Assembly: GCF_026151205.1 (NCBI RefSeq) | Contig: NC_087077.1 | Span: 7,307,983 to 7,371,982, forward strand | DNA from: Bolinopsis microptera | Taxonomy: Eukaryota; Ctenophora; Tentaculata; Lobata; Bolinopsidae | Direction of reading: 5' to 3' | Length of the DNA stretch: 64,000 bases | Shown here: one piece after another, positions 13,667-25,400 of the stretch | Position numbering within the stretch: the stretch's first letter is position 1 | Layout of the letters: each line of letters starts with the position of its first letter | Translations under genes and position numbers: made by a program | Notes under the pieces: model-generated | The model's input: the letters and a program-made list of their open reading frames with translations, nothing else | What the model was told of the DNA's origin: nothing | Databases searched by the model: none

Positions 13667-13973
13667 TTAGGGGTTGTTCACATATTACGTAATCAATATT
13701 TTAGCAATCCCCCCGCCCCCTCCGTAATCAACCGTAATCAAGACCCCCCTCAGTGGCGTAACGTTGCCTGTTGGCGCCCCCCGCCCCCCCCCCCGCCGAA
13801 AAAAGCGCCCCCCTGTTGGTGCCCCCTCCCTTTTTGGTGCCCCTCCCTAAAATTGAACAAATTAGGTGATTTTAAGTTTTCGAAATTGTCCCACACTCAA
13901 ACGACGATTCGGTGCCCCCCCCCCCCCCCCCCCCCCCCTCGGCTGATTACGTAATATGTGAACGACCCCTTAA
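13667..13973. mobile_element. MITE family A, with a possible second insertion inside
   Basis: Terminal inverted repeats: the left end GGGGTTGTTCACATATTACG and the right end CGTAATATGTGAACGACCCC differ at one position. The right end is flanked by TTAA (13970-13973) and the left by TTAG (13667-13670), so a TTAA target with one mutation is likely (piggyBac-like target choice). The middle (from CAGTGGCGTAACG at about 13751) is not shared with the copy at 3455-3616 and looks like a further C-rich insertion. It ends in a C run of about 26 bases near 13914-13939. Confidence 0.7.
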
Positions 13974-14010: not shown

Positions 14011-15058
14011 TGGGGACACGTTTTTGCTAGTAGTTTGCGACATTATTTTACGGGTATCGAATCTCGCGACTTCAACGAAGTCCTGGGGACACGTTTTCAA
14101 TAATTGATAATATTTTCAGCCCCTATCGTTTTAAGCATCGTTAGGGCTTTCCCAGAAACTAACTCTCATCATCCTAGGATAATCGTGTGTCGCACAGCAC
14201 CTCTTTCAGTAACGAGAGTAGTCGCATGCAGTCCAGAATGACGTGTACGTTTCGGTCACCTGTGGAAAAAGGAAGTGAGATATCAAAAATCTGAGAAAAA
14301 CCCGTTGGATAAAAGCCTTTCAGGTAGGTGCTAGTCAAGATTTCATCTCTTTAGACCTTAAGATGGCTTCTAACACCTCGTCAAAAGTTTTTAAAAGTAA
14401 ATTTTACTCGCGACTATCAAAAAACAACAAAAACGTGTCCCCAATTTGCTTTTTTGAGCGCGCCCAGATCAGCGCACCTAGCTGATCTAGCTACTATGAA
14501 CACTGAACAGGCACACAAAAATATCAGTGAATATAAGTGATTTCGGTTATTGGAGTAATTTCATCGGAGCAGTCACATTTTTGATGGTGATTAATACTTT
14601 AATAACATTCCACAACAAGGCAACCATTAACTATGTAGTGTGTACCGTGTGCAGTGTGAAGTATAATATAGAGTTGGCATGAAGTTAACAGTTTACTTAT
14701 CACGAAGTTTAATTAGAAGATAAGGAAAATATTGTATTGTTATCTGTCAAAGGAATTTAATGTATTCTAACAACTTGTTCTTATAATAACTAATCGATGA
14801 ACCACATACAGGGTCGGTGTGAGTGTAAGAATTTGTGTGAGAAGATATATAGAGGAGCAAAATTCGACATCACTGGATACGGCCATACTCGGTTGAATAC
14901 ACCCCATCTCGTTCGATCTGGGAAGTTAAGCAACTGCAGGCCGGGTTAGTACTTGGATGGGTGACCGCCTGGGAATTCCCGATGCCGTATCCTTTTGTTA
15001 TATTTTCGAAGAATTGCTTTACTGAACAGAAGAATTGTGTATGGCTTTTACAGAATTG
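14011..15058. repeat. Left outer inverted arm
   Basis: Pairs with 21221-22490 in reverse complement. The two arms have the same gene order, including the 5S gene. The main size difference is the 220-bp MITE with its 8-bp target duplication present only in the right arm. The left arm is interrupted at 15058/15059 by the nested GC-rich element. Confidence 0.9.
14875..14992 (+). rRNA. 5S ribosomal RNA gene or 5S-derived copy (left arm)
   Basis: A 118-base segment starting GGATACGGCCATAC with the conserved TTGAATACACC and CGTTCGATCTGGGAAGTTAA. The internal promoter is complete: box A region AAGTTAAGCA, then TTAGTACTTGGATGGGTGAC and CGCCTGGGAA. The 3' end GCCGTATCC pairs with the 5' end, and a TTTT pol III terminator follows at 14993-14996. 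It is oriented toward the interior of the foldback element. Whether it feeds ribosomes or acts as a transposon-borne pol III unit cannot be told from sequence. Confidence 0.93.
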
Positions 15059-16493
15059 GGCACTATCCGTCGCGGAGTAGAGTCCGCGGCGGAGCCGCCG
15101 GACTCCGAGCGGACTCCGGCGGTGCTCCGCCAAAATGTATTTACACTGGACTCGAGTACATTTTTGCGGACTCCGAGCGGAGCCGAGCGGACTCCGAGCG
15201 GACTTTAAAATCCGCCGCGGACTCCGAGCGGCTCCGCGGCGGCTCGGCGGAGTGTCCGCCGCGGACTAAGCCACTAGGCGGACTCCGGTCCGCCGCGGAC
15301 TCCGGCGGAGTGCTTGGCGGACTCCGCCGGACCTCTCCGCCAGACTTGAATCCGGCGGAGTCCGGCGGAGCTTGGACTCCGCTCGGAGTCCGCCGGACTC
15401 CAACAGAGTCCACTGACTTCCGACTTCCGACTTCCGACCCTCGGCTAAATTTGTCACGTGACATACAACATAGCCAATAGCATTTTGCGATATTGTGGTC
15501 AGATGAAAAGGTCGCTAGTGATAAACCTTAACCATTACCCTCACAGTCACAATGTCAATAGTGTACAACTCTAGTCCTAACTTTGACCCTATAATGTATA
15601 AACGTTGACCCTAACCCTCCACCAAACCGCCAGCAGCGAAATATCAATGTCATTGACTGGTCACGTGACCAAAACAATTTTTGTCATATTATCTCATATA
15701 GGGAAGCGTTTTTAGTTTTACCCTACACGTTGCATGTGGCGTCATTCGGCCGGATCCCAGCAAGCAAAAATACGTCGACCATCACAGGACGACGCCAGCA
15801 CTCTCTATGCTGGTCGAGCTCCGATCGTCCTGTGACGAAGTAAGGACGAAGCCTGAGGTCCTCAGGTAACATCGACCACCGATTGAAAATTCAGAGATTT
15901 TTTGACATAAAGGTCAAATGTAAAACTAAAATCTTGATGTTAATTGATTGACGACGCGACGTCAATTTTTGAGCACAGCGCGAGCGCATGCGGAAAAGGA
16001 CCGCGTAGCTAGTCAAGATGTTGATAAATATTTGGCTTGTGGCGCGATGTGTTGCTCTAAGTCTAACTATAGCTCTCTCGCTTGCAGTTACTGGGCCGCG
16101 CTCAGCCTGTCATTTCGCCTAATCTCTATTAAGAACATTAAAGCCTGGGGTCCTCAGGTAAGCTTGCAGTAGCGCGCGACCGCCGGAGGCGGAAATGACC
16201 TGGTTAGCTAGGTAAACGCGATGTGCATTGTAGGATGAAATCCTACTAGCTGACGCCACTCGCAGCTGTGCTACTCGCTGTACGTCAGCGATCGAAATTT
16301 ATACGCGTATTACCCGTTAAGATGTGCCACCCGACGTGCCACACAATTTTTCTCGTTGCTCGTCGCACGTCGACGAACAACGAAGCTCGTTGCGACGCGC
16401 AATGAGCTGCCAGGCTAGGACATCGTCCTGGTCCAACAAATTTTGGCGAGCGATTTTCTCCAAAAATTTAATGAGGGCGCCTACTTCCACTCT
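15059..16493. repeat. Left arm of the nested GC-rich element
   Basis: Reverse-complement counterpart of 17329-18737. The outermost part (to about 15400) is packed with overlapping CGGACTCCG, GGCGGAGTCCGCC and CGAGCGGAC words. A stretch near 16085-16165 (GCGCTCAGCCTGTCATTTCG onward) is not matched in the right arm but is related to 43690-43785, so it is probably a later insertion or conversion. The 161-codon and 107-codon open frames here are artefacts of the GC-rich palindromic words. Confidence 0.88.
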
Positions 16494-17328
16494 GATATCA
16501 GCTCATAAACTTTATTGTTTATGATAATTAAATTATATTATCAAACTACGCCAAGTTGGTACGGTGGAGTTTAGTTTATACTAGACTCTAGTGGGCGTTA
16601 TAGAAGAAACCTTACAGTTACTTAGCCGGGCTAATCTCAAGGTCGTTTCTCTCACCAGAGGCGCGGCAAAATTCACCGAGCATTAAGGAACGCGCGCTGG
16701 GTAAGAAGTAGGTAGTGCGCCATCGACAGTGAGCCGCGCGTGCCGACTGAAGGATGGTTTTTTAGCGCTAATTTCGGCCAGCACAATTTTCTTCAAACAA
16801 ATAGATATAGAGTATCCTTCCCGACCTCCAATTGCAACAAAAATTGGTAAGCTTACTCATAAACTTACAAGGAAAGTGTCCGAAAAATTTAAAGCATATC
16901 CAACCATCAGACATTATGTTACAGCTAAAAGCAGCGTATTTTGCCCCATTTTTATTACTATATCAACTCCGATATCCACCAAATTTTTTCGGACAGTTGT
17001 GAAAGCGCAATTGGAAGGTCGTCGCCAATTTCCAGAATGATCTCATTTAAGGAACTGAAGATAAATCCGAATAATACGACAAAAATGGTCAAATTTGGAC
17101 GAATTTGGTCAAATTACGCGACTTTTACTGTTTACAGCTACTTTTGCTCCAAAAGCCGCGCACCATCAAATATGGCACCTAGGCGAAACTCACTGATCTT
17201 TCCAAAAAGGTACAACAAATTTGGTATTGTGAAAATTCTCACAGTCTCTAGAAAACAGTGGTACAAAATTTTTTTAAATCCAAGCAACTTTATTTTTATC
17301 GTGCACCCCCTATAAAAAGAAACCTAGC

Positions 17329-18737
17329 CAGAGTGGAAGTCGGCGCCCTCATTAAATTTTTGGAGAAAATCGCTCGCGCTCGCCAAAATTTGTTGGACCA
17401 GGACGATGTCCTAGTCTGGCAGCTCATTGCGCGTCGCAACGAGCTTCGTTGTTCGTCGACGTGCGACGAGCAACAAGAAAAATTGCGTGGCGCGTCGGGT
17501 GGCACATCTTAACGGGTGATACGCGTATAAATTTCGATCGCTGACGTACAGCGAACATCACAGCTGCGAGTGGCGTCAGCTAGTAGTAGTAGGATTTCAT
17601 CCTACAATGCAAGGCACATCGCGTTCATTTAGCTAACCAGGTGCTTTCGCGCCGCTGCGGGCGCGCTTGTTCCACAAGTCATTTCTGGCGGTCGCACGCT
17701 ACTGCAAGCGAGAGGGCATAGTTAGAGCAACACATCGCGCCACAAGCCAAATATTTATCAACATCTTGACTAGCTACCGAGCTACGCGGTCCTTTTCCGC
17801 ATGCGCTCGCGCTGTGCTCAAAAATTGACGTCGTCAATCAATCAACATCAAGATTTTAGTTTTACATTTGACCTTTATGTCAAAAAATCTTTGAATTTTC
17901 AATCGGTGGTCGATGTTACCTGAGGACCTCAGGCTTCGTCCTTACTTCGTCACAGGACGATCGGAGCTCGAAGAGCGTAGTGAGTGCTAGCTGGCGTCGT
18001 CCTGTGATGGTCGACGTATTTTTGCTTGCTGGGATCCGGCCGAATGACGCCACATGCAACGTGTAGGGTAAAACTAAAAACGCTTCCCTATATGAGATAA
18101 TACGACAAAAATTGTTTTGGTCACGTGACCAGTCAATGACATTGATATTTCGCTGCGGACGGTTTGGTGGAGGGTTAGGGTCAACGTTTATACATTATAG
18201 GGTCAAAGTTAGGACTAGAGTTGTACACTATTGACATTGTGAGGGTAATGGTTAAGGTTATCACTAGCGACCTTTTCATCTGACCACAATATTGCAAAAT
18301 GCTATGTTGTATGTCACGTGACAAATTTAGCCGAGGGTCGGAAGTCGGAGGTCGGAAGTCAGTGGACTCTGTTGGAGTCCGGCGGACTCCGAGCGGAGTC
18401 CGCCGAGCTGGCGGAGTCCGCCAAGCTCCGCCGGACTCCGCCGGATTCAAGTCTGGCGGAGAGGTCCGGCGGAGTCCGCCAAGCACTCCGCCGGAGTCCG
18501 CGGCGGACCGGAGTCCGCCTAGTGGCTTAGTCCGCGGCGGACACTCCGCGGAGCCGCCGCGGAGCCGCTCGGAGTCCACGGCGGACTTTAAAGTCCGCTC
18601 GGAGTCCGCTCGGCTCCGCTCGGAGTCCGCCAAAATGTACTCGAGTCCAGTGTAAATACATTTTGGCGGAGCACCGCCGGAGTCCGCTCGGAGTCCGGCG
18701 GCTCCGCCGCGGACTCTACTCCGCGACGGATAGTGCC
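17329..18737. repeat. Right arm of the nested GC-rich element
   Basis: Reverse-complement counterpart of 15059-16493, with small indels. It carries a short segment near 17640-17690 (GCTTTCGCGCCGCTGCGGGC) not found in the left arm. The GC-rich terminal block lies at about 18365-18725. Confidence 0.88.
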
Positions 18738-18943
18738 CAGAATTGCAGTGATTATTAAGAATATCATTTTATCCTAAGCAATATAGTCTATGTTCAAACG
18801 GAAGGAAATATTTCCAAATGTCAGAATAACATTGCTTAGAATAGTATAGATACTAAGTTTTGTCTGAAAAGGGCTTTTTTGTTTCATTCTAAGATCTATC
18901 TTAAACATTCTGCTTAAAATTAACTAGAATGTATTTTTAAGTT

Positions 18944-20090
18944 AACTTGAAGAGTACTGCAAGGTATCCTGGAGTTACCTTGAAAAGTACTACAAGGTAT
19001 CCTGAAGTTAACTTGAAGAGTACTACAAGGTATCCTGAAGTTAACTTGAAGAGTACTGCAAGGTATCCTGAAGTTAACTTGAAGAGTACTATAACAATGC
19101 AATGTATCCTGAAGTTAACTTGAAGAGTATAACTGCAAGCTGCAAGGTATCTTGAAATTAACTTGAAGAGTACTACAATTAGGTATCCTGGAGTTAACTT
19201 AAAAGTGATACAAGGTATCCTGAAGTTAACTTAAAAAGCACTACAATGCAATGTATCCTGAAGTTAACTTGAAGAGTATAACTGCAAAGTGCAAGGTATC
19301 TTGAAATTAACTTGAAGAGTTCTGCAAGGTATCCTGTAGATAACTCGAAGAGTACTGCAAGCAATCCTGAAGTTAACTTGAAGTGTACTACAAGATATTG
19401 TGAAGTTAACTTAAAAAGTACTACAAGGTATCCTGAAGTTAACTTGAAGAGTACTACAAGGTATCCTGGAGTTATCTCGAAGAGTACTACAAGGTTTCCT
19501 GAAGTTAACGTGAAGAGTACTACGGGGTCCGGACTCTAGGGCGTAAGACTCTAGGGCGTAGGACTCTAGGGTCTTAGGGTTAGGGTTAGGGTTAGGGTTA
19601 GGGTTAGGGTTTGGGTTTGGGTTAGGGTTAGGGTTAGGACAAGGGTTAGGGTTAGGGTTAGGTTGATGGTTAGGGTTAGGGCGCCGCCCTAAAGTCTCAC
19701 GCCCTAGAGTCTTACGCCCTAGAGTCCCGGACCCGAGTACTACAAGATATCCTGAAGTTAACTTGAAGAGTACTGCAAGGTATCCTGAAGTTAACTTGAA
19801 GAGTACTACAAGGTATCCTGGAGTTAACTTAAAAAGTGATACAAGGTATCCTGAAGTTAACTTAAAAAGTACTACAATGCAATGTATCCTGAAGTTAACT
19901 TGAAGAGTATAACTGCAAGGTATCTTGAAATTAACTTGAAGAGTACTATAACAAGGTATCCTGAAGTTAACTTGAAGAGTACTACAAGGTATCCTGAAGT
20001 TAACTTGAAGAGTACTACAAGGTATCCTGAAGTTAACTTGAAGAGTACTACAAGGTATCCTGAAGTTAACTTTAAAGAGAACTACAAGTT
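18944..20090 (+). repeat. 33-bp minisatellite, left (plus-oriented) array
   Basis: The unit contains GAAGTTAACTTGAAGAGTAC followed by TACAAGGTATCCT and totals 33 bp, so every frame is open and one reads as an 11-residue repeat (YPEVNLKSTTR). The array is interrupted by the telomere-repeat MITE at 19524-19734. Some units carry indels such as TATAACTGCAAGCTGCAAGG. Flanks (18746-18943) are matched inverted at 21030-21220. The long open frames here are not genes. Confidence 0.95.
19524..19734. mobile_element. 211-bp MITE carrying TTAGGG telomere-type repeats
   Basis: Ends are inverted repeats: GGGGTCCGGACTCTAGGGCG on the left; CGCCCTAGAGTCCCGGACCC on the right (one extra base). They are followed inward by further GACTCTAGGGCG-type repeats in both arms. 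The core is about 15 mostly perfect TTAGGG units with a few variants. It is flanked by GAGTACTAC at 19515-19523 and 19735-19743. That 9-mer occurs once in an uninterrupted 33-bp unit, so this is a true 9-bp target duplication made on insertion into the minisatellite. Confidence 0.9.
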
Positions 20091-20375
20091 ACCTTCAAAT
20101 TATCCTCTATTATATACTTAATTAATCCTGTAACAACCTCTATGTTGTTGTTGTTGTGGTAGCCTGCACGCAAACTTGGATTAAATTAAGATAAAGCTGA
20201 TCTGATCCTGAAGTTAACTGACAGAAAGCATGAAGTTGACCTAAAGTTAGATATTTGTCGTCTTCCAATTATATCGGTCCCGATATATTTGAAATTTTAT
20301 CGCCTCTCGGATTTGCAGTATAACTTGCAAGTTAACTTAAGAATACATTCTAGTTAATTTTAGGATACCTTGTAC

Positions 20376-21030
20376 TTTGTAGTACTCTTCAAGGTAACTC
20401 CAGGATACCTTGTAGTACTCTTCAAGTTAACTTCAGGAAACCTTGCAGTACTCTTCAAGTTAACTTCAGGATACCTTGCAGTACTCTTCGAGTTATCTAC
20501 AGGATACCTTGCAGTACTCTTCAAGTTAACTTCAGGATATCTTGTAGTACTCTTCAAGTTAACTTCAGGATACCTTGTAGTACTATTCAAGTTAACTTCA
20601 GAATGTCTTGTAGTATTCTTCAAGGTAACTCCAGGATACCTTGCAGTACTCTTCATGTTAACTTGAGGATACCTTGCAGTACTCTTCAAGTTAACTTCAG
20701 GATACCTTGCAGTACTCTTCGAGTTATCTACAGGATACTTTGCAGTACTCTCCAAGTTAACTTCAGGATACCTTGTAGTACTCTTCGAGTTAACTTCAGG
20801 ATACCTTGCAGTACTCTTCGAGTTATCTACAGGATACTTTGCAGTACTCTCCAAGTTAACTTCAGGATACCTTGTAGTACTCTTCGAGTTAACTTCAGGA
20901 TACCTTGCAGTACTCTTCGAGTTATCTACAGGATACTTTGCAGCACTCTCCAAGTTAACTTCAGGATACCTTGTAGTACTCTTCAAGTTAACTTCAGGAT
21001 ACCTTGTAGTACTCTTCAAGTTAACTTAAA
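20376..21030 (-). repeat. 33-bp minisatellite, right (minus-oriented) array
   Basis: Same 33-bp unit as at 18944-20090 in reverse orientation (AGGATACCTTGTAGTACTCT). A higher-order pattern is visible: a ~99-bp block (three units, one containing GAGTTATCTACAGGATACTT) repeats at least three times between about 20710 and 20960. Together with the left array it makes the core of the outer palindrome. The spacer at 20091-20329 is unpaired. Confidence 0.93.
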
Positions 21031-21286
21031 AATACATTCTAGTTAATTTTAAGCAGAATGTTTAAGATAGATCTTAGAATGAAACAAAAAAGCCCTTTTC
21101 AGACAAAACTTAGTAGCTATACTATTCTAAGCAATGTTATTCTGACATTTGGAAATATTTCCTTCCGTTTGAACATAGACTATATTGCTTAGGATAAAAT
21201 GATATTCTTAATAATCACTGCAATTCTGTAAAAGCCATACACAATTCTTCTGTTCAGTAAGCAATTCTTCGAAAAATATAACAAAA

Positions 21287-21403
21287 GGATACGGCACCGG
21301 GAATTCCCAGGCGGTCACCCATCCAAGTACTAACCCGGCCTGCAGTGCTTAACTTCCCAGATCGAACGAGATGGGGTGTATTCAACCGAGTATGGCCGTA
21401 TCC
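21287..21403 (-). rRNA. 5S ribosomal RNA gene or 5S-derived copy (right arm)
   Basis: Reverse-complement copy of the left-arm 5S gene with two visible differences: one A lost just after the box A region (AAGTTAAGCACTG instead of AAGTTAAGCAACTG) and GGTGCCG for GATGCCG near the 3' end. The internal control region and TTTT terminator are kept. The lost base falls in a conserved part of the molecule, so this copy may be less functional than the left one. Transcription would run inward, toward the left-arm copy. Confidence 0.9.
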
Positions 21404-21773
21404 AGTGATGTTGAATTTTGCTCCTCTATATATCTTCTCACACAAATTCTTACACTCACACCGACCCTGTATGTGGTTCATCGATTAGTTATTATAAGAA
21501 CAAGTTGTTAGAATACATTAAATTCCTTTGACAGATAACAATACAATATTTTCCTTATCTTCTAATTAAACTTCGTGATAAGTAAACTGTTAACTTCATG
21601 CCAACTCTATATTATACTTCACACTGCACACGGTACACACTACATAGTTAATGGTTGCCTTGTTGTGGAATGTTATAAAAGTATTAATCACCATCAAAAA
21701 TGTGACTGCTCTGATGAAATTACTCCAATAACCGAAATCACTTATATTCACTGATATTTTTATGTGCCTGTTC

Positions 21774-21993
21774 TTGTCATACGTTGATTCACGATGTCAA
21801 TCCTTCGCAGCTCGGTGAGGCACAGTGGTGCATCTCGCCGAGCAACCGAAGGTTGCGAGAAGCATTATTTGATGCGCGCGCGACCCAGTAGTGCATCGCG
21901 CTACAAGTCATACGTTGTATGACCCGCCGCGCACGAAGTGCGCGGCTCCCCCTGTAGCGTCGAAACGACCGTGGGGGTCGCAACGTGATACAA
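21774..21993. mobile_element. 220-bp MITE family B in the right arm, 8-bp target duplication
   Basis: Flanked by GCCTGTTC at 21766-21773 and 21994-22001; absent from the left arm. Ends are imperfect inverted repeats TTGTCATACGTTG and TTGTATCACGTTG (read outward to inward). Inside are short GC-rich palindromes such as CCGCGCACGAAGTGCGCGG. A second family member with the same left end lies at 42522. Confidence 0.85.
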
Positions 21994-22490
21994 GCCTGTT
22001 CATAGTAGCTAGATCAGCTAGGTGCGCTGATCTGAGCGCGCTCAAAAAAGCAAATTGGGGACACGTTTTTGTTGTTTTTTGATAGTCGCGAGTAAAATTT
22101 ACTTTTTAAAAACTTTTGACGAGGTGTTAGAAGCCATCTTAAGGTCTAAAGAGATGAAATCTTGACTAGCACCTACCTGAAAGGCTTTTATCCAACGGGT
22201 TTTTCTCAGATTTTTGATATCTCACTTCCTTTTTCCACAGGTGACCGAAACGTACACGTCATTCTGGACTGCATGCGACTACTCTCGTTACTGAAAGAGG
22301 TGCTGTGCGACACACGATTATCCTAGGATGATGAGAGTTAGTTTCTGGGAAAGCCCTAACGATGCTTTAAAACGATAGGGGCTGAAAATATTATCAATTA
22401 TTGAAAACGTGTCCCCAGGACTTCGTGAAGTCGCGAGATTCGATACCCGTAAAATAATTGTCGCAAACTACTAGCAAAAACGTGTCCCCA

Positions 22491-25400
22491 CGCGCCAGGG
22501 TGTTAAATATTATTGCAAATTTATTATGCATGCAACGCAAATTGATTTATTATGCCGCGCGTAATGTTTGCGCGATGATACGCATAAAAAGAAGTTTGTC
22601 TTTCGCGTTCAAAGTTATCACAATTTGTGACCTGACAGCACGATAAAATGCCAGTCAAACGGTATGCGAGTCTAAGGTTAGAATTTTAAAAACAAAGAGG
22701 GAATGGACGTGGTTAATCTTTGAAAAATATCAAAGGTATTTTCCCAAGACAGCTGTAGATATAATAAGCCATGGCTGCTAATCGTAAGCAATGGTCGAGC
22801 ATTTTCTAGAATAATAAAAACATCCATATCCGGTGCACTGGCCAGGATGACATATACTTCGTGTCTATAAGGTTACAAGCTACAATGACGTAATGCATAG
22901 ACGTTATGCGTTTCGCAAGGACGGTCACCATTGATCTATAATGACAGAATACAATTTGTTCGCCATTTTCGCTACTGATAGTGATGGTGAATTAGAAAAA
23001 ATTGCCATTTCATTTTAATGTAATGTTGAAAATAGCTATTTGGAATACAGCCCCAAACTTGAAAAAGATTGCAAGCAGGTTTAAAGATAGGAAAACTAAA
23101 CTGAAGTGGGGTGGCTACTCAGCAAAGTTATTGTTGGCAAGCAAAGGAAGAGGAGGCTGGGGAGACAATTTGTATGAGATTTAGACTTGATTATTTTGCA
23201 GTTTTCTTATTCTACTTTAGCTTACAGTAAATTTATAGTGACAAGAGACAAGAGAGCTGCATCAAACGTATTGCCAGCCAGAGTCTGAAACAGCAAGTAT
23301 CTTAAATACAGTTTTATTCCAAGAGATCAGAGATTAAAATTTAGTAGTGGGCTTAAACAGCAGGAAACAGCATTGAGAACCTTAAGTTAAATTTCTAATT
23401 GCTTAGTTGGGAAATTAGCAGGCCGTTCTAGTCTAGTAGGCCACGCTCTAAGTCTACTGTAATTTACACCTCACATACGATTCCTTTGCTGTAATGATGA
23501 TTACAGTACTTATCGACTGCAGTAACAAGCCTCGGTGAATGTTTCAACATTTGTATGAAATTTAATGAAACTAGATGAGTAAGAAACTATCGGAAGGTTT
23601 ATCCAACAATAGCAAGTTAAATAGTTTTTCAAAACCGAGCTTAAGTACTCATAAATTTCACAGCAAAGCGAAATGCAAAGTTAAATGTTGGACGTACGTA
23701 TTTATATATAAATAAAATTTGACAAGTAGCTTGTTCAGCATGTACATTGTACATTTTCATGTAGGATTGCAGGGTCAGCAGAATTATACTATACAAACAT
23801 TTTAAAGCTATGGTGTTTAGTGCCCTATTATGGTGTCTACTCATCTATTATTAAATAGCCAAGTATGAAAGGTAACATAATAGCAACATGGTAGTAAATA
23901 TGATACATAGTTAATTTGTCTTATATTTATCTTATATTCGTCTATTTGAGATGCTCAAACCCCATCTTTACGTACTGCAACAGCTCATAAAATGTGGAAT
24001 ATGACATAAAGGAATAATGCATCTGAGTAGCTAGGGCAAATTTTTTGATTTTGCCATTCACACCCTTTTGTAAAAAGGCAATAATGAAAGGTTACGAATG
24101 GACGTTTTTGCAAAAAACGTGGATTTTGGAGATTGCGGTAGGTGGTTTTAGATTTCGTGTTCGTTCGTCACACTTTACCATGGCAAATAGACAACTAGAC
24201 GCACAAGGGTTGTTTGCGGAGATGTGATGTACATTAAAGACAATAGCCTATAGTCAGCATGCATGCGCGGCACAAGTGTATAAGTATTTCAATGTATTAG
24301 GCTATAAGCCCAATTTGTATGTGATACGCGTAGTGAAACATTTTAATTATTATTATCACTTCGAGATGGCCAGGCCTACTCTCATAGCCTCATGGCAATT
24401 GATCGGTGTAGTTGGTGTTGTACACACTGCACTGATAACGATATCACGTTGTACGTGTAATGTAAATATAGTGTGGATAAATGCGAATATATATTCTAAA
24501 TAACTGATAAATGATACGCGTAGTGTACTGAATACTGATGTGTACAATTATAAAACATGAGTATAGTTCACTTTTTGGTTACAATTTCTTGAATTACAGA
24601 TAAAAGCTAAGTTCTACGGCTATTGAATTGAGTCACAAGTTTTCCCTATTAAAGCGTATAATGTTCGTGTTATGAAGTGAGCTGATTAGAGCTTGTAGTG
24701 AATGGAAATCTAGCGTCCGCCACAACGAAACAACGGACGCAATTCTTGTTAGGTCAAGTGTATTTTGATAGTTTAAACACAATGTACTACACAATGTACT
24801 ATATATACAATGTACTACAATTTGACTCGACCCAAATGTTCTATTAAAACCTACAAAGTGTAAAAATAAACATTCTTTCGAACGCCAAAAAATAACATAA
24901 TTTTTATCTAATAAGGAGTATTTCTCGAGTAAGTGATGATAGTAAATGATACCAGAAAGAAATATATAAATCGGGCACCTTATGTCTGAGTTGTAATCCC
25001 AAACGTTCGGATAGTGGGCCCCAAAAGTAGTATAATTAGCTGCAACTATGACACTATTTGATAAATCCTGTATTGTCGAAGAAAATGTCAATAATGTGAG
25101 TTGTGTGAGACGAAATTATTTATAGCTACAGATTGTTGCTTCCAGATGGTGGGCGATAGCTGGTTTCATGGCTCACTAAACAACATTAAATTGTAGCATA
25201 TCATATTATTCTTAAGAAAGAAGTTTAGAATGACCTAGTGACCTCAGTCTCTACTGATTACAACCAGAAAGAACAGTAATCGTGGAAAACATCCAGAACT
25301 TTCCCAGCCGGAGAAACACACTGTGAACATGTCTGAACATGTATGGCGTGCTATTTAGCTTAGATAATAGAGTATCGGTACTTAACAGATCCTTCGGCCA

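Follow-up and report, generated by a model that had tools for sequence, protein, structure and literature searches.

5S rRNA genes carried as common cargo by two putative DNA transposon families in the ctenophore Bolinopsis microptera

Analysis of a 64,000-nucleotide stretch of the Bolinopsis microptera genome (assembly GCF_026151205.1, contig NC_087077.1, positions 7,307,983 to 7,371,982, forward strand; hereafter the window) revealed a foldback element in which each of the two long inverted arms contains a 5S ribosomal RNA (rRNA) gene. The element is a copy of a transposon family termed here family A, and a second transposon family with other ends, family B, carries the same cargo. As read from their sequences, A and B show DNA-transposon anatomy without a gene of their own, the cargo is common to both, and the 5S is conserved between them. 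The window copy and the insertions nested in it have the following features:

14011..22503, no strand: window copy of the family A foldback element, lacking the outermost 13 bp at the left and with an altered version of them at the right
14011..14443, plus strand: left outer end module (TGGGGACACGTTTTTG...CAAAAACGTGTCCCCA), which occurs in 5S-less elements too
14444..14838, plus strand: left middle arm
14843..14874, plus strand: upstream 5S region, with a TATA-like ATATAG where other 5S genes in this genome have their upstream motif
14875..14996, plus strand: left 5S rRNA gene and TTTT, one substitution (Rfam)
14997..15058, plus strand: first part of the 5S tail module, which resumes at 18738-18899 beyond a nested insertion
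15059..18737, no strand: second foldback, nested here and foreign to family A, with CAGAATTG at either side (flanks by eye)
18940..20096, plus strand: left array of 33-bp tandem repeats, containing a telomere-like insertion (limits by eye)
20097..20316, plus strand: central spacer common to families A and B
20301-20316: scrap of the B end module (CGCCTCTCGGATTTGC) inside the central spacer
20340..21040, minus strand: right array of 33-bp tandem repeats, inverted (limits by eye)
21068..21280, minus strand: right 5S tail module
21283..21403, minus strand: right 5S rRNA gene and TTTT, one-base deletion (Rfam)
21774..21993, no strand: 220-bp insertion nested within the right arm, foreign to family A and with GCCTGTTC at either side (by eye)
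22057..22490, minus strand: right outer end module

At the Rfam gathering threshold the window displayed two 5S matches spanning model positions 1-120, at 14875-14993 on the plus strand (104.4 bits, E 8.3e-22) and at 21286-21403 on the minus strand (100.3 bits, E 9.9e-21), which point toward each other and are both followed directly by TTTT. The arms pair as inverted repeats at 99% identity (14505-14932 with 21346-21773) and 98% identity (14129-14405 with 22095-22371), and their inner parts were read as 33-bp tandem repeats. A preliminary description of the window had proposed a full inward-facing 5S sequence with terminator in each arm; the whole-model matches and inverted arms agree with this, except that each gene has one change compared to the genome-standard 5S, a G-to-A substitution on the left and a 1-nt deletion on the right. 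The end that had been placed at TGGGGACACG was moved outward by 13 bp, where other copies read CAACCCTGGCGCG (CAACCCCAGCGCG in L025); in the window copy these outermost 13 bp are absent at the left and altered at the right, reaching ~22503. The 8.5-kb span includes three nested insertions (15059-18737, 21774-21993, and ~19524-19737).

Other copies of the end and arm were sought in the whole genome (264.65 Mb, 232 contigs), and family A was found to comprise eight elements with 16 arms: the window copy, five further inward-facing 5S pairs matching the window arm at 96-99% over ~1050 bp, and two elements on C8 that match the outer 860 bases of this arm at 89-91%, the match being limited to 676 bases in one of their arms. 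A 5S was identified in 16/16 arms, that of the L025 right arm being truncated and below the Rfam cut-off. The idea that such an element spreads 5S genes was thereby upheld, since the 5S lies within the arms of a DNA-transposon-like foldback found at eight places. The six other copies without a long insert measure 4.2-5.1 kb. The longer C8 foldback (L023/L024) contains an insert with a GIY-YIG domain of the kind seen in Penelope-like elements.

The true ends of family A read CAACCCTGGCGCG (CAACCCCAGCGCG in L025) ahead of TGGGGACACGTTTTTG, mirrored at the other end, giving the termini CAACCC...GGGTTG; one L001 arm reads TTGGG at that place. Both ends were present in seven of the eight elements, with exact 5-bp target duplications in six of these seven. 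Identical 5-bp flanks were found in 11/14 two-ended elements (seven of them with 5S) compared to 6/182 flank pairs taken from different elements, a test that left out the window copy (left end missing), L029 (mirror-image flanks), and L027 and L028 (one end missing). The ends and flanks indicate that family A inserts as a unit, and it combines long inverted arms, short tandem repeats, and a target duplication in the manner of foldback-type DNA elements. Foldback elements with long inverted arms made partly of short tandem repeats include FB of Drosophila and TU of sea urchin; family A is likened to them by this architecture of the arms, not by ends or duplication length, and neither FB nor TU is known to carry a 5S gene.

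Arms of other copies lacking 5S, an outcome that the preliminary description named as refuting, were not seen among the 16 foldback arms; the outer 433-bp end module, however, also occurs in other elements without 5S. None of the 12 other loci with such ends contained a 5S (L026-L035, L049, and L050, being those read among the end-pattern matches; ten checked by Rfam and BLAST, L049 and L050 by BLAST); L027, L028, L030, and L031 show one end only. The end pattern has 73 occurrences in the genome at three or fewer mismatches and none when read backwards. Part of the left middle arm (query 708-817) also resembles 5S-less relatives at 79-85%, plus one 70-bp match at 93%. Since the end module is found in elements without 5S, the 5S is cargo rather than a required part of the ends, and it is a trait of a single lineage among these transposons instead of a property of the end system.

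An autonomous partner of family A was not found among L049, L026, L029, and L050. A reverse transcriptase was obtained from L049 and a zinc-finger piece that did not reach the cut-off from L026; L050 lacked any frame of 90 amino acids, and the end-related element L029 yielded a lone hAT dimerisation piece (E 4.9e-5) that could be nested and that has 47 weaker matches elsewhere in the genome. The 8-bp target duplication of hAT elements was not seen in family A, with its 5-bp duplications in 11/14 elements; hAT groups with 5-bp duplications exist. The flanks of L029 are mirror images of each other, and therefore an inverted duplication extends past this element.

Family B, overlooked in the preliminary description, is a second, non-foldback transposon family with other ends and one 5S, which is followed by the same tail, 33-bp repeats, and spacer as in family A. 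Its outer sequence is unlike that of A and starts sharply at (C)ACGGCTGTTCTAGCG; a two-ended copy on C5 is 2938 bp long, terminates in GAACAGCCGTG, and has GCGC on both sides. The search for the B 5' end gave 20 matches, and counts rest on the 17 at 0-1 mismatch, all of which were read, with three weaker ones left out: 13 lead into a 5S and four do not. Among the 13, two are interrupted and two (L051 and L054) are one insertion duplicated with its flank. The flanks of this pair (C6:3.98 and 3.96 Mb) are identical at 180/180 bases, and the two copies lie back to back ~15 kb apart, indicating a large inverted duplication. The interrupted copy L042 was outside the Rfam scan of loci.

The element X1 (L045 and L052, C11:3870761-3875739), a longer relative of B, has both B ends, with its last 355 bp 98.6% like B, and is bordered by GTCT at either side; where B has the 5S cargo, X1 displays a row of open frames resembling a multi-exon gene. 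No credible Pfam match was obtained for five X1 frames, nor for pieces of its distant relatives L055 and L056. The X1 frames include a CPFC motif, and one frame has 16 weaker matches in the genome. The flanks of the short, 5S-less copy L047 do not match, so that the 4-bp duplication of family B rests on two copies.

A search with the 5S tail (29/29 candidates scored) gave 29 matches at 28 places, consisting of the 16 A arms (that of the window left arm being split), 11 places in B loci, and one at C35:7410, ~3.4 kb beyond the interrupted B copy L042. A donor locus of the cargo was not found among the 27 tail places read, all of them A or B loci. All eight A centres contain CGCCTCTCGGATTTGC (16 bp), the sequence with which the B right-end module begins in X1 and L047, and then break off. 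Because of this B-end scrap in the A centres and the single 5S in B, the cargo of the foldback, for which the preliminary description had seen no second family, was probably donated by B to A and then duplicated head to head.

The genome holds at least 47 scored 5S matches (7181 candidates), and the 47 listed were sorted by us into 23 in tandem arrays, 16 in A or B elements, and eight dispersed singles. The arrays have steps of ~850-890 bp, and their units L006-L008 match the A arm only at bases 875/876 to 997/998, corresponding to the transcript and T run. Upstream of the gene, the arrays and six dispersed single genes have a motif in common that consists of AATATAG near -29 and AAATTTC near -16 (a listing that did not include L020 and L021), and A and B have ATATAG at the same upstream position. 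On a matrix built from eight other 5S gene regions, seven A and B upstream 32-mers scored 4-9 bits, values exceeded by only 0.01-0.06% of 79,683 background 32-mers that include the elements themselves, compared to 17-33 bits for other 5S genes, each scored with itself left out. The TTTT directly after the 5S is also found in the 5S genes listed with upstream regions.

A SINE3-like origin from an RNA copy was considered and rejected: the edges at +1 and at the terminator fit, but in both A and B an upstream region of the 5S gene type can be recognised. This favors capture of DNA over an RNA copy, with the weaker upstream score as a caveat. L009, L012, L013, L015, L016, and L017 are dispersed single 5S genes with differing flanks and the common upstream motif, and L012 is the best BLAST match to the A upstream region. 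L020 and L021, on C8 and C166, are two 5S genes inside a several-kb repeat (95.8% over 2.3 kb) that may be either a duplication or an alternative haplotype.

Conservation was assessed on 29 aligned cargo modules (16 A and 13 B), with counts made on 16 A and 11 B after L038 and L042 were dropped for their interrupted 5S, and with parts of the window left arm, L019, the L025 right arm, L051, and L054 masked. The A and B consensus sequences differ at 0/122 sites of the 5S with its T run, at 15/190 sites of the tail, and at 3/28 sites just upstream, set against private substitution events that number 35 each for 5S and tail (Fisher P 0.00023). The result was retained with B private events only (5S 19, tail 15; P 0.0001), with the window left out (P 0.00006), and with any single element or cluster dropped (P <= 0.0016). 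Outside the internal promoter boxes, whose positions in the 5S we assumed, 0/80 sites differ and 6.3 would be expected at the tail rate. The ten independent B insertions showed changes at 22/1220 5S sites (including two deletions) compared to 73/3763 outer B sites, and among these ten, changes in the 5S and in the outer sequence were not significantly correlated (rho 0.42, P 0.22). The consensus contrast together with the about equal drift in B insertions implies that the 5S is mostly kept in spreading lineages and that inserted copies drift. A 5S unchanged between families while the adjacent DNA drifted suggests that mobile DNA gains from the 5S or that the 5S is kept repaired.

The proposed history begins with family B as a non-autonomous DNA transposon that would have lost its own gene, taken in a host segment comprising a whole 5S gene with its upstream region and terminator, and then spread. 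A piece of B that starts ~37 bp ahead of the 5S, takes in the 33-bp repeats and the spacer, and stops 16 bp into the B right-end module would have landed inside an unrelated long-inverted-repeat transposon with 5-bp target duplications, and an inverted duplication would have produced family A with one 5S per arm. Family A would then have been copied to at least eight places, presumably by a transposase acting in trans, and a trans-acting enzyme is likewise supposed for B. An RNA polymerase III (Pol III) transcription unit near the ends, if transcribed, may help the element, the most economical benefit being an open arm, constantly bound by factors, that remains accessible and withstands silencing. 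The full-length 5S RNA may in addition be tolerated or useful, and usefulness would explain why the non-promoter part was also kept. Selection on the Pol III unit is the favored cause of the 5S conservation, and the reading as a whole, with B donating the cargo to A and the 5S kept for the benefit of a Pol III unit to the element, has in our judgement about an even chance of being correct.

Several observations weigh against this reading. The same pattern would arise if host 5S genes repaired the source copies, family A has no assigned transposase, and the A and B upstream regions score well under other 5S genes (4-9 compared to 17-33 bits). Family A without the C8 cluster (private 5S 3, tail 17) shows no contrast alone (P 0.24), some private tail changes are false owing to an alignment slip in the window right arm, and the promoter boxes by themselves (0/39 sites, 3.1 expected) have too few sites to tell. 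The 5S is unchanged in only 8/29 modules. The two C8 elements, which are separate insertions with unrelated flanks, share two 5S changes, and therefore their lineage moved one or more times when its 5S was already imperfect. A stronger version, in which a class II lineage would have made a complete host 5S gene its working equipment, with promoter and RNA body selected for spread, passed to an unrelated family, and seeding 5S genes genomewide, is put forward only tentatively.

The main rival to a beneficial Pol III unit is repair of source copies by host 5S genes, in which the 5S would be passive cargo, overwritten now and then in the source elements by gene conversion, with no gain to the element. 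Strong donors are available, as the array units and most dispersed genes listed have the same 5S sequence, and it is the whole 5S rather than the promoter boxes alone that is unchanged between the A and B consensus; the resident B copies, however, drift in their 5S as in their outer sequence, so that conversion is not general and would have to reach source copies only. Overall this explanation is considered rather unlikely. Plain hitchhiking, with a 5S caught by chance in copies too young to have lost it, would suit the youth of the main A copies (arms 96-99% like those of the window), the spread of 5S-less elements that bear the same end module, and the movement of the C8 lineage with two 5S changes. 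It is harder to reconcile with tails that differ at 15/190 sites between A and B when the 5S differs at none (P 0.0002) and with the presence of the 5S in two families with unrelated ends, and it is judged improbable.

The preliminary description had further suggested that Pol III, transcribing the interior convergently, could produce double-stranded RNA, an idea in keeping with two 5S genes that face each other; it is disfavored to the point of being very improbable because TTTT directly follows the window 5S genes and the other 5S genes listed and because family B has a single 5S. A 5S array piece inverted by local duplication, conceivable in a genome with tandem 5S arrays and named in that description as a refuting outcome, was ruled out, for the arms have only the transcript in common with the array units read and the element lies in differing flanks with target duplications.

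Pol III genes are familiar as drivers of retroelements, namely short interspersed nuclear elements (SINEs), Cassandra, and probably Ajax; in these, the RNA to be copied is transcribed from the promoter. DNA transposons do not need a copied RNA, and a 5S unchanged between two of them thus asks for another reason, with open chromatin, targeting, a useful RNA, and repair as candidates. The A and B elements also provide a concrete means by which 5S genes can be dispersed, and their natural 5S variants, such as a substitution common to both arms of L004 or those of the C8 pair, allow elements to be told apart in expression tests.

The plant terminal-repeat retrotransposon in miniature (TRIM) Cassandra carries 5S sequence in its long terminal repeats (LTRs) and mirrors host 5S promoter changes (PMC10853983, PMC10886601). 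It resembles family A in being non-autonomous, with 5S in both terminal repeats and a 5S promoter in step with the host (PMC10853983, PMC10886601), and differs from it as an LTR retrotransposon with direct repeats and variable stretches beside the promoter boxes. By comparison, A has inverted arms, A and B have DNA-transposon ends, and no consensus difference occurs over the whole 5S. Ajax has a partial 5S in its LTRs and is grouped by its author as TRIMp3 (PMC10886601). Ajax and Helenus, both TRIMp3, are described there as having captured small RNA gene sequence, that of Ajax from 5S, and share 5-bp duplications with family A; Ajax has only part of a 5S, in LTRs, compared to the full-length 5S and upstream region without LTRs in A and B (PMC10886601). 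With regard to the Cassandra and TRIMp3 elements, 5S-derived sequence with a putative promoter is present in the terminal repeats of 16/16 A arms (one truncated), and the A arms are inverted instead of forming direct LTRs.

SINE3 elements are also mobile elements with 5S-derived sequence (PMC10886601), which serves as the promoter head of a reverse-transcribed RNA, whereas the 5S of A and B is internal, between DNA-transposon ends. It lies hundreds of bp inside the ends in both families, not at a 5' end as in SINE3. Dada transposons are DNA transposons tied to small RNA genes like A and B, inserting into small nuclear RNA (snRNA) and transfer RNA (tRNA) genes (PMC3706591). Dada targets such genes, and its U6 and U1 families are described as lacking terminal inverted repeats (PMC3706591), whereas A and B carry the 5S inside, with insertion flanks that differ and are not within a small RNA gene. 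LTR elements have been reported beside Pol III genes (PMC5014426). Among the matches listed in an open-access literature search, a scope outside which most subscription papers fall, no account was seen of a 5S gene inside a DNA transposon.

The nested foldback at 15059-18737 sits in the left 5S tail, has ends reading GGCACTATCC, and its arms are rich in CTCCGCCGGA-type repeats. The 220-bp insertion at 21774-21993 has inverted ends (TTGTCATACGTTG...CAACGTGATACAA), and at ~19524-19737 a telomere-like (TTAGGG)n stretch was seen by eye within a small inverted-end insertion in the 33-bp repeats. Just outside the left end of the foldback, at 13671-13970, lies a small element that has inverted ends (GGGGTTGTTCACATATTACGTAATC) and contains long runs of C.

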